The notes beneath the pieces are model-generated. The model did not search any database. It worked only from the letters and a program-made list of their open reading frames with translations, and was not told where the DNA came from. This document shows, piece after piece, positions 11,057-36,547 of a stretch of 43,818 nucleotides of DNA. Within the stretch, counting starts at the first letter, position 1; every line of letters begins with the position of its first letter. Location: the NCBI GenBank assembly GCA_016192985.1, contig JACPTC010000054.1, forward strand, positions 1 to 43,818, in the 5' to 3' direction. The translations under genes were made by a program, and so were the position numbers. Origin of the DNA: Candidatus Woesearchaeota archaeon (lineage in GTDB: Archaea > Nanobdellota > Nanobdellia > Woesearchaeales > GW2011-AR4).

Positions 11057-11164
11057 CTCACCTTTTAAGCAAAATTTCTTTGAATGTTTTTATATTTAAA
11101 TTTTGTGTGGTGGTTTCAAATTTGGAAAAATTTTATAATGTGGGACAATAAACCATGTCAATAC

Positions 11165-11269
11165 ACGGCTGTGATCTAGCGGCTATGATTCGAGCTTCCC
11201 AAGCTTGATACCCGGGTTCAAATTGTGGCAAGCGAGCATGCTTGTCGCATGCAAGTCCCGGCAGCCGTA
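11165..11269 (+). tRNA. tRNA-Gly(CCC) with a 33-nt T-loop intron (11223-11255)
   Basis: Acceptor ACGGCTG/CAGCCGT; anticodon stem CGAGC/GCTTG with loop TTCCCAA; T-stem CCGGG/CCCGG; removing 11223-11255 restores T-loop TTCAAAT and a 72-nt tRNA. Confidence 0.85.
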
Positions 11270-11313
11270 TTTTTTAGAAACTTATTTATACATCAACTTA
11301 AAATGACGTTGTT

Positions 11314-20480: not shown

Positions 20481-20629
20481 TGCGGGGAGAAGGATTCGAA
20501 CCCTCGTAGGCACTAAGCCAGTAGATATCACGCTTGCCTGAAAATAAGTGGACAGGCTTAAGCTTGCCAGAAGCCTTGAGTTTGGGTACTTTAAAGTTCT
20601 ACCCCGTTTGGCCACTCCGGCATCCCCGC
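20481..20629 (-). tRNA. tRNA-Leu(CAA), type II, apparently with two introns (20582-20598 and 20527-20574)
   Basis: Acceptor GCGGGGA/TCCCCGC; D-stem CCG/CGG; variable arm GGC/GCC; T-arm GAGGG-TTCGAAT-CCTTC. Removing 17 nt and 48 nt gives GTAGA-CTCAAGA-TCTAC and an 84-nt tRNA. Confidence 0.8.
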
Positions 20630-33367: not shown

Positions 33368-36300
33368 TTATATTTTGCTGACGAAGCCGCGTCTCGGTTC
33401 AAACACATCCCCCGAACGCTTTAACCTCTCAAGAGCATCCTCAACCTTATCCTCATCTAAGCCTCTGTTTTTTGCTTCTGCAACAACCTCTTCAATTGGA
33501 ATTGCCTTTCCAAGCTTTGTCTCAAGCTCACCAATAATCTCTTTCAAAGTCAATATGTGGCTTCTTTGCGTGGCAGGAATTCCAGTCGCTATTCTGTCAA
33601 TATCTATCTTTCCCGTCTCCCTATCAAAACCAACTTGCATCAGACAATAATCCAACAACTCAATAGCTTTTCTGGCATCTTTTCTAGTGACTCTACTATC
33701 AAGCCTAGCTCTCGCAGAAGCTTCGCTGAGCCTTACTAATGCTTCCAGCTGTCTCGCAGAAATAGGAATGGTTTTTACACCACCTTCGCCACCGCCCTTT
33801 CTCATTCTAAGATAAAACTCCTTAATTTCCTCTAAAGCACCATCTGTAAGTTTCGGATGCATTTTTTGCCTTGCATACGCAACATACTTTCTTAATAAAT
33901 CAGTGTGTATTTCTGGCTCTTGTATGTCTGGACTCTGGTGTAAAGTCAAAATATGCTTTGCCATCTTCTCATCTCGAGTTTCTTCTGGCAAGTCTTTTAT
34001 AGGAAATATCAAGTCGAATCTGTTAATGAGCGTAGGTGGTAAATCTATTTGGTCTGCAATTATCCCGTAAGGGTCAAATCTGCCAAACTTTGGATTTGCA
34101 GCCGCAAGCACGGTTGTTCTGGCTATCAGCGTTGCCTGTATATTTGCTTTGCTGATGCTCACTGTTTGATTTTCAAGAGCTTCATGCATTGCTGCCCTGT
34201 CCTCAGAATTCATCTTATCAAGCTCGTCAACACAAACCAGTCCATCAGAGCTTAATACCATTGCTCCTGCTTCCAAAGCCCAACCGCTTAAAAACTCATC
34301 CCTTACAACAGCGGCTGTAATTCCGGCTCCACTCACGCCTTTGCCGCTTACATATCTTCCTTTTGGGGCGATTTGGGTTATCCTTTTAAGCAATGCGGAT
34401 TTTCCTGAGTTATGGCAGACAATCCCATTTGCTATGAATGTATGACTAACAGGCACTTCAAAATCATATACATCCATAACTCCAGACGGTAAAATTTTAA
34501 CAACTCTTTCCCATCTCTGAGGTTTTTTTCTTTTTTGAATATGGCTTTTATTTTTTATTACTTCCAAAACATTATTCAATGCTGTTTTCTTTTTTTCAGA
34601 ATTAAATCCTATATGCTTGGCAAATAATTCCATATCATAAGACCTTCTTATACATAAATTGTTTCCTATAACTCTTGATTGTAAACCGAAATAGAGAAGT
34701 AATAACTGCACATCTTGTAGCACATCTATTGTAGAAGATTTTAATTGTATAGATGTTCTTCCTCTTCCGTTTCCAAAAGCACAACCATCGGCTTCAAAAA
34801 GCCAGCTGATAAATTTTGCTATAACATGCTTTGGACTTTTAAATATTTGCTGAGGAACCCTTTTATTTGCTAAAAAGGAAAGTGATTGCGCAATTTGCCT
34901 GCTATTCATCTCTAGTACATATATTTGTTGGGTTGAAATAAACTGCCTTAAAAGTCCACTTCCATCATCAATAGTTTTCACTTTTCCATCAATGTTCTTA
35001 GTATAGATTGAAGGCTCTACATTAAATGTTATTTTCCACAACTCTGAAAGATTTTCAATCAAATCCCTTTCCTCATTATTAACATAACAGGTTACCCTAT
35101 ATCCATTTGGATGGATATTTCCATCCCCGATAATATAACCACACAAAGAAGCAAGCTCAGGTGTAAATTTACTTGGCAGAGAAACTTCTTTTAGATGCTC
35201 AGATTTTTTCTCTACTCTTTCAAAATTAGTTTGGGCAAGCTTTTTGACCATTGTTGGAATTTTTGGCATAACCCTAATCGGTGTGTTCAATAAAATTTCA
35301 TCAGCTCTTTTCCAGCCATCTTTTGTCAGAAAAGGCTGATTATAGGTACATGTAACTTCTTTTCCCGTTTCAGTAACAACCTTAAGTACGGGTTGCTGTG
35401 GATAATGTTGAAAAATAGTTGCAAAATCATAATATTTATCTTTTCCATGTTTTCTTATTTTTGTGACAACCTCCCTAATTTGCTGCAAGTGCTTGTTTCC
35501 AATATTTTTTATCTGTTCCATCCCTTTGCATATTAACGCAACTTGGGAATCACCTGCAATACATCCAGGGTCACCAACCAGCAGAATATGCATGTCGCCT
35601 CTACTAACCACATTGTCCATCCTCGTCTTTCTTACACCTCCCATTAGCTGAAGCAGCAACGCTTCCTTCACCTTTTCGTATCCATAAATCGAAGGAGCCA
35701 TTGAATTCACAAGCTTTTCATACCCTTTTGGGTCATTCGCAATTTCCAGAATTTCCTTTTCATCTTCCTCGCTTATCTCAACTTCATAAAATGTGCCTTC
35801 AACAGGCTTTATGTGATTGGTATCAATCATCAAATCAAGCTTCGTTGATTTTGCGCCACTTCTCGATATTATAGGAACTTCTTTTACTACACCAACAACC
35901 TCTACCTTGCTGCCTGGTGAAGTTCTTTTCTCGCTTAAAGGGCTAACCAAGTCATCTGTCAGAAGAACATTGATGCGTTTTGGCTGCTCCCCTCCTTCAA
36001 GGTTTTCGTGAGCCTCTTCAACTACAATTCCCTGTGCGTCTACCAATTCTTTGTCAAGCATGACAAACTTACCCTTTCTCCCGCAGCCGCACCTTGTTGG
36101 CTCCCTGAAAGTGCCTTCAAGCTGCAATACATTGATTATGTTGCCACACACAGGGCACTCAAATCTTGCGGATGTAACCTGAGGCCTTACATCGGATTTT
36201 CGCCTTATAACACCCTCAACAAAAAAAAGCTTGTTTATGTGCTTGCTTCTGATGTCCCTTATCATTATGTGCTGGCTTTGCGGTAAATTATGGAATCTTA

Positions 36301-36547
36301 TTCTAAAATTGATTAAACCTTCTACATCAAATTGTTCAACTGCCTTTTCAATAGCCTTTATTGTCTCGTCAGGCGCATCCAGAAGCTGTGTTGCAAGGTC
36401 AAGGTCGTACTTAGAAAGCTCTGCAAAATCTATTAAGAGGAACCTATCACCATTTCTCACACTCTCTAATAGGGAAGTGTAGTAATTGCTATCAATGAAA
36501 TCCTGAAACCTCCTTACCTGCTCGATGACATTAAGTTCCATAAGCAC
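33368..36547 (-). CDS. mcm: MCM replicative helicase containing an intein
   Basis: HILLVGDPG|intein|SGKSALLKRITQIAPKGRYVSGKGVSGAG; MVLSSDGLVCVDELDKM; AANPKFGRFDPY; N-terminal zinc finger CPVCGNIIN...CGCGRKG. Confidence 0.97.
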   Translation of the reverse strand: MLMELNVIEQVRRFQDFIDSNYYTSLLESVRNGDRFLLIDFAELSKYDLDLATQLLDAPDETIKAIEKAVEQFDVEGLINFRIRFHNLPQSQHIMIRDIRSKHINKLFFVEGVIRRKSDVRPQVTSARFECPVCGNIINVLQLEGTFREPTRCGCGRKGKFVMLDKELVDAQGIVVEEAHENLEGGEQPKRINVLLTDDLVSPLSEKRTSPGSKVEVVGVVKEVPIISRSGAKSTKLDLMIDTNHIKPVEGTFYEVEISEEDEKEILEIANDPKGYEKLVNSMAPSIYGYEKVKEALLLQLMGGVRKTRMDNVVSRGDMHILLVGDPGCIAGDSQVALICKGMEQIKNIGNKHLQQIREVVTKIRKHGKDKYYDFATIFQHYPQQPVLKVVTETGKEVTCTYNQPFLTKDGWKRADEILLNTPIRVMPKIPTMVKKLAQTNFERVEKKSEHLKEVSLPSKFTPELASLCGYIIGDGNIHPNGYRVTCYVNNEERDLIENLSELWKITFNVEPSIYTKNIDGKVKTIDDGSGLLRQFISTQQIYVLEMNSRQIAQSLSFLANKRVPQQIFKSPKHVIAKFISWLFEADGCAFGNGRGRTSIQLKSSTIDVLQDVQLLLLYFGLQSRVIGNNLCIRRSYDMELFAKHIGFNSEKKKTALNNVLEVIKNKSHIQKRKKPQRWERVVKILPSGVMDVYDFEVPVSHTFIANGIVCHNSGKSALLKRITQIAPKGRYVSGKGVSGAGITAAVVRDEFLSGWALEAGAMVLSSDGLVCVDELDKMNSEDRAAMHEALENQTVSISKANIQATLIARTTVLAAANPKFGRFDPYGIIADQIDLPPTLINRFDLIFPIKDLPEETRDEKMAKHILTLHQSPDIQEPEIHTDLLRKYVAYARQKMHPKLTDGALEEIKEFYLRMRKGGGEGGVKTIPISARQLEALVRLSEASARARLDSRVTRKDARKAIELLDYCLMQVGFDRETGKIDIDRIATGIPATQRSHILTLKEIIGELETKLGKAIPIEEVVAEAKNRGLDEDKVEDALERLKRSGDVFEPRRGFVSKI
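34409..35563 (-). mobile_element. LAGLIDADG-type intein in the MCM Walker A loop (385 aa)
   Basis: Starts CIAGDSQVAL, ends SHTFIANGIVCHN then S+1; dodecapeptides LCGYIIGDGNI and FISWLFEADGCA. Confidence 0.95.

Follow-up and report, generated by a model that had tools for sequence, protein, structure and literature searches.

The tRNA-Gly(CCC) gene at 11165-11269 (+ strand) of the analysed window (the whole 43,818-nt stretch of DNA) carries a 33-nt insert at position 59/60. Very probably this insert is a bulge-helix-bulge (BHB) tRNA intron belonging to a T-loop-specific family whose copies have passed from one tRNA gene to another inside a single Woesearchaeota genus. The structure of the insert, its recurrence, its covariation with the host gene and its patchy distribution were observed directly, in comparisons with relatives many of which are metagenome-assembled genomes (MAGs). 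Membership of a multi-gene intron family is visible only when relatives are compared and hence lay beyond the earlier note, which was made from the sequence of the window.

The window represents one entire contig of a Candidatus Woesearchaeota MAG, that of a groundwater archaeon (1.26 Mb, 65 contigs, 77% complete). Approximately 20 tRNA genes were located in this genome and all except Val(CAC) seem longer than an uninterrupted tRNA, lengths other than that of Gly(CCC) being judged by eye only. A second interrupted tRNA, of the long-variable-arm type and probably Leu, lies at 20481-20629 (- strand) of the window and has a large insert in its anticodon loop. The earlier note had raised the possibility of another, intact tRNA-Gly(CCC); none was found in this 77% complete genome. 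The interrupted gene itself sits amid chromosomal genes (PCNA, RNase J, cobalamin synthesis, PolD, Cdc6, MCM), with no integrase seen. Delivery of the introns by mobile elements integrating in tRNA genes has been proposed for Caldiarchaeum (PMC3293823), and tRNA genes are common integration sites, but this chromosomal neighbourhood and the lack of any exact pattern match among 2.9 million viral contigs make such delivery very unlikely here. The same exact pattern scan led us to reject a viral origin.

The layout of the gene, all on the + strand, is ACGGCTG TG ATCTAGCGGCTATGAT T CGAGC TTCCCAA GCTTG ATAC CCGGG TTCAAA [33 nt] T CCCGG CAGCCGT A. The 5' exon (11165-11222, tRNA positions 1-59) comprises the acceptor strand ACGGCTG, the D arm, the anticodon arm with CCC, the variable loop, the T-stem strand CCGGG and the loop sequence TTCAAA. 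It is followed by the 33-nt intron TTGTGGCAAGCGAGCATGCTTGTCGCATGCAAG (11223-11255) and by a 3' exon (11256-11269) consisting of T60, the T-stem strand CCCGG, the acceptor strand CAGCCGT and A73. A possible archaeal TATA box, the A/T-rich ATTTTATAAT (11130-11139), lies ~26-35 nt upstream, and a T6 run directly 3' of the gene (11270-11275) may act as terminator. ARAGORN found no tRNA in the unspliced DNA of the window and Rfam returned nothing above threshold there; against the Rfam tRNA model the unspliced gene scored 20.1 bits, and this only via misalignment into the insert. Once 11223-11255 was removed, restoring TTCAAAT, ARAGORN called tRNA-Gly(ccc) and the RNA folded into a complete cloverleaf, which bore out the exact gene coordinates and the non-canonical 59/60 intron that the earlier note had read from the letters. 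The mature tRNA-Gly(CCC) predicted after splicing would contain ...CCGGGUUCAAAUCCCGG... As a 33-nt removal slid along the gene gave an ARAGORN call at 16/71 offsets, the intron borders cannot be set by ARAGORN alone and were set by the BHB rule together with the T-loop sequence TTCAAAT.

An unconstrained fold of all 105 nt produced the cloverleaf with the insert hairpin extending the T arm (-44.3 kcal/mol, z -3.9; 0/200 shuffles as good). Within it, exon strand TTCA (11217-11220, positions 54-57) faces intron strand TGCA (11250-11253) in a 4-nt central helix with 3/4 pairs, the exception being a U55.C mismatch that recurred in 46/64 family genes. This helix is flanked by two 3-nt bulges: AAT (11221-11223; AAT in 57/64 genes), with a cut predicted from the known BHB rule at AA|T between 11222 and 11223, and AGT (11254-11256; last base T in 64/64 genes), with a cut predicted in the same way at AG|T between 11255 and 11256. 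The inner hairpin (11224-11249), whose helix shows double changes in the family, has 10 bp formed by TGTGGCAAGC (11224-11233) and GCTTGTCGCA (11240-11249) around the loop GAGCAT. The earlier proposal of a BHB with CCGGG/CCCGG as T-stem, one central mismatch, these bulges and a 10-bp inner helix therefore held in every part, and the predicted motif is a near-complete hBHBh'. No group I/II catalytic core was found in the insert, which is only 33 nt long and has no Rfam match except tRNA.

The same intron was recovered throughout the genus. BLAST of the gene against 39 relatives gave two kinds of match, one to the Gly(CCC) body and, separately, one to the T-loop plus intron in other tRNAs; among the former, the Gly(CCC) gene of G002 was 94% identical with the same intron. 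A covariance model (R1) built from 24 intron copies had matches in 20/20 genus genomes searched, with up to 11 per genome at E<=0.01, the lowest-scoring being uninterrupted T arms or noise. All 70 strong matches inspected (from about E<=1e-6) fell in a tRNA T arm or T-loop, and in the 64 distinct genes the intron always interrupted the T-loop at 59/60. Short copies, 48 in all, came from 18 genomes and covered 18 anticodons for 12 amino acids, the isoacceptors (assigned by eye) including Gly, Ala, Glu, Leu, Ser, Arg, Thr, Pro, Trp, Tyr, Asn and a CAT anticodon. Three copies occurred in the source genome (Gly(CCC), Ala(GGC) and Trp(CCA)), where unrelated introns also occupy the T-loop site, e.g. 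in Arg(CCT). ARAGORN recognised 48/68 family genes after removal of the family intron alone compared to 3 unspliced, and agreed with the by-eye isoacceptors where genes were recovered, except for some with additional introns. Standard tRNA finders miss most such genes, so that MAGs of this kind are credited with fewer tRNAs and a lower completeness than they have.

Beyond the genus the family was weakly represented. Phylum-wide, R1 had matches in 52/371 genomes, mostly weak; a near-identical copy in Ala(GGC) of G168, a member of another family (74.9 bits), may reflect transfer or mis-binning. An exact pattern scan of 84,980 genomes, with no mismatch allowed, returned Woesearchaeota and one bacterium only. 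This Saccharibacillus match (L064) was taken as chance, in keeping with a rough estimate of about one such hit.

Across 24 copies, the T-stem, central and inner helices had 89.9% standard pairs compared to 76.6% in shuffles, and the whole structure contained 43 double-change cells compared to 11 in shuffles and 3-13 in slid-partner controls. Among the 64 genes, the T-stem was 5/5 paired and C56-G present in all, and U54-A was present in 63. Exon base 57 and its intron partner formed A-U in 46 genes, G-C in 16 and a mismatch or wobble in 2 (Fisher p=6e-13, kinship ignored), counts to be read with the caveat that R1 was trained with these pairs and favours matching hits. The same exchange separates Gly(CCC) orthologues, A57-U in G000 and G57-C in G003. 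Intron-bearing Thr(GGT) genes (L116, L127, L131, L160) have G at the normally invariant U55, where it pairs with the intron C. Since exon base 57 belongs to the mature tRNA, the intron appears to track the host exon; the position-57 pair suggests that each intron copy is tuned to its host gene.

A chance origin of the insert is excluded because the same intron recurs, at one fixed site and with covariation, in 64 distinct tRNA genes. It is likewise extremely improbable that a random insertion has inactivated this tRNA gene, although neither ARAGORN nor Rfam calls it: its stems are intact, a 94% identical gene in G002 has the same intron, and covariation runs through the whole family.

The closest intron lay in a different isoacceptor for 37/48 copies, and introns from different isoacceptors reached up to 97% identity while the T-stems differed. 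Against movement, mean intron identities were close, at 0.75 within an isoacceptor and 0.70-0.73 between isoacceptors, and ~33 nt carries little phylogenetic signal. The near-identical loop GCGAGCATGC, which the BHB does not require, spans isoacceptors, which points to common descent and away from convergence. On a tree of the PolD large subunit, genomes with intron-free Gly(CCC) (G006, G001) were interleaved with intron-bearing ones (G003, G012; G002), the grouping of G001 and G002 having weak support; this interleaving fits repeated gain and loss. An alternative is that ancient introns at 59/60 in most tRNAs were inherited vertically and repeatedly lost, their likeness reflecting one ancestral burst. 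In its favour, the family is present in all 20 genus genomes and weakly beyond, and some orthologues are close, e.g. Ala(GGC) is identical in G002 and G014; it is nevertheless unlikely, given the nearest relatives in other isoacceptors and the patchy presence in close relatives.

The preferred reading, movement among tRNA genes, would have a structural basis, and we infer cleavage, ligation and the route of movement as follows. The T-stem would serve as outer helix of the BHB, exon bases 54-57 (the conserved TTCR) would pair with the intron 3' end as central helix, and the intron would supply the inner hairpin. Cleavage at AA|T and AG|T would fall to the single EndA of the genome, and the exons would be sealed by an RNA ligase, which in most relatives is RtcB. 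Nearly all tRNAs present the same T-loop sequence closed by a 5-bp stem, so that a copy inserted at 59/60 of another tRNA would splice with little or no adjustment, which accounts for the presence of one intron in many isoacceptors. Counting against this reading are the U55.C mismatch in the central helix and the failure to find RtcB in the 77% complete source genome. As to the route, we offer only as a tentative idea that the ~33-nt intron is a minimal mobile element copying site-specifically into the universal T-loop of any tRNA, e.g. by reverse splicing of the excised intron and return to DNA, in a lineage whose EndA comes from a single gene. Alternatively, the introns may have spread through gene conversion between T-loops or their microhomology-driven recombination, without any transposition of their own; this is conceivable though somewhat doubtful. 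Short homology could be provided by the flanks TTCAAA and T, which most tRNAs share, and no mobility gene is linked; the T-stems, however, remain gene-specific, so that tracts would need to end within ~7 nt on each side. An IS200/IS605-type Y1 transposase was rejected as mover, being missing from 12/20 genus genomes including intron-rich ones such as G006, an absence that also accords with conversion. The system provides a compact test of archaeal tRNA intron gain, combining a small intron, a single insertion point, many target genes and close genomes with and without the intron.

Other elements occurred in and around the introns. A second inverted repeat, GCATGC...GCATGC, overlaps the splicing hairpin in 11223-11255 and 60 family introns, and may serve movement instead of splicing. 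The conservation evidence for it was mixed: the duplex energy was -7.7 with own partners compared to -6.2 with shuffled partners (sd 0.18), and the 24-sequence alignment held only 2 double-change cells, with 91.6% paired versus 89.9% in shuffles. A repeated hairpin element, GGTAAATGGYGAGCGAG...CTCGCATGTCAC, lies in the loop of some T-loop introns (L159, L164, L166, L169) and also stands alone outside tRNAs (L214-L216, L219-L221, L223-L225). These outside copies make a repeated DNA element likelier, and we rejected an interpretation of the nested insertions as BHB-in-BHB twintrons. By eye, four T arms (L120, L051, L173, L147) have apparently two introns, at 53/54 and 59/60, with a 6-nt exon (TTCAAA/TTCGAA) between them. 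Another repeated intron element, CAACCTTTTCTTTGCTCGC..., occurs in the T-loops of two tRNAs of the source genome (L178, L179) and in a Pro anticodon-loop intron of G013 (L128), and the hairpin GGGTTTCGCTTCGCTCAAGCCC and its variants recur within long introns of different tRNAs (L035, L036, L040, L051, L171). Finally, tRNA-Gly(CCC) of G011 (L029) stops in the T-loop, with no 3' strand of T-stem or acceptor ahead of the conserved downstream gene. Its 3' half, CCCGGCAGCCGT, was found nowhere in this 78% complete genome, which may reflect a split tRNA, a deletion or an assembly fault.

The earlier note had suggested identifying the EndA type, and had stated that T-loop introns require an endonuclease with broad specificity. 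The source genome encodes one EndA of 198 aa, adjoining rpsB and with both EndA domains present, whose best matches were N. equitans NEQ205 (3iey_A) and M. jannaschii EndA (1a79). It aligns with the latter over residues 52-198 without a large insertion, with the Tyr, His and Lys that we take to be catalytic in aligned places. It lacks the ~9 residues inserted in A. pernix chain 3p1z_B, presumably the CSL. Of the 59 relatives, 52 (including 99-100% complete ones) had a single EndA match, G013 had two, and six incomplete genomes had none; neither a second subunit nor a three-unit fusion, as in (alpha-beta)2/epsilon2, was found in the source genome and the relatives searched. EndA is likely a homotetramer, because of the single gene match per genome in 52/59 relatives and the missing 9-residue insertion. 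With a near-complete BHB and what appears to be a single short M. jannaschii-type EndA gene in these genomes, the need for a broad-specificity endonuclease was not supported. Reviews tie broad EndA specificity to CSL or ASL loops (PMC6379350, PMC12397907). In this lineage many non-canonical introns seem to coexist with an EndA that has no such loop, which would challenge the view linking these introns to multi-subunit or loop-bearing EndA.

RtcB was not found in the 77% complete source genome and was present in 50/59 relatives, in several of which (G002, G005) rtcB had no insert. In six relatives (G003, G010, G001, G011, G013, G039), an insert of 30-34 nt that contains in-frame stops interrupts rtcB after the codons for PDGHWG (L246, L247, L249, L250, L252, L253). 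This insert forms a perfect BHB (central GGGG/CCCT 4/4, bulges ATT/TGA, inner helix 9/9) whose base changes keep pairing, and in the four tested its removal extended the frame from 421-445 to 487-512 codons. The presumed exon ligase would depend on BHB splicing of its own gene. Additional inserts were observed at three other sites, all in conserved motifs: after PDGH (L248, L251, L254, L255), in FDI/NCG (L250, L251, L255), and at GGAAT TTAAACCTTAGT CGGG (L248, L249), the insert there being only 12 nt and in frame with a stop. Long interrupted frames in rtcB (G019, G040) and in the PolD large subunit (G010, G013, G014) suggest inteins, and the MCM gene of the window (33371-36547, - strand) carries an intein with LAGLIDADG domains. 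No description of BHB introns in rtcB was found in the literature searched. BHB introns are known in the cbf5 pre-mRNA of Crenarchaeota (PMC2738675); both are protein-coding genes, but rtcB is a different one, whose product is the ligase credited with joining BHB exons.

We found no description of tRNA introns of Woesearchaeota in the literature searched, a search that subscription papers mostly lay outside. Large-scale tRNA intron transposition is known in the Thermoproteales (Fujishima et al. 2010, MBE 27:2233; via PMC4090602, PMC4033280). As far as these secondary accounts describe it, similar BHB introns there also occupy different isoacceptors and non-canonical positions in many interrupted tRNA genes, whereas our case concerns a DPANN phylum, Woesearchaeota, and one family bound to a single site, 59/60. 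The crenarchaeal EndA is heterotetrameric, unlike the single short EndA gene of the Woesearchaeota genomes here. Among the classes alpha4, alpha'2, (alpha-beta)2 and epsilon2 (PMC6379350, PMC12397907), this EndA matches the alpha4 kind of M. jannaschii in its N domain and its catalytic domain and also resembles NEQ205; no second subunit or crenarchaeal-type insertion was found. Non-canonical introns at 59/60 are listed for Crenarchaeota and Nanoarchaeota (PMC4090602); these share the insertion point and BHB logic of the Woesearchaeota family, which differs in being multicopy, homologous and covarying with exon base 57. The Asgard Atabeyarchaeia and Freyarchaeia likewise have intron-rich tRNA sets, with most genes interrupted, often at non-canonical positions (PMC11291895), a likeness drawn by description to an unrelated lineage. 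T-loop introns at 59/60, intron transposition in Thermoproteales and intron-rich Asgard tRNA sets are already known; new are the lineage, the single-site family spanning many isoacceptors, the covariation at exon position 57 and the setting in which EndA comes from one gene.
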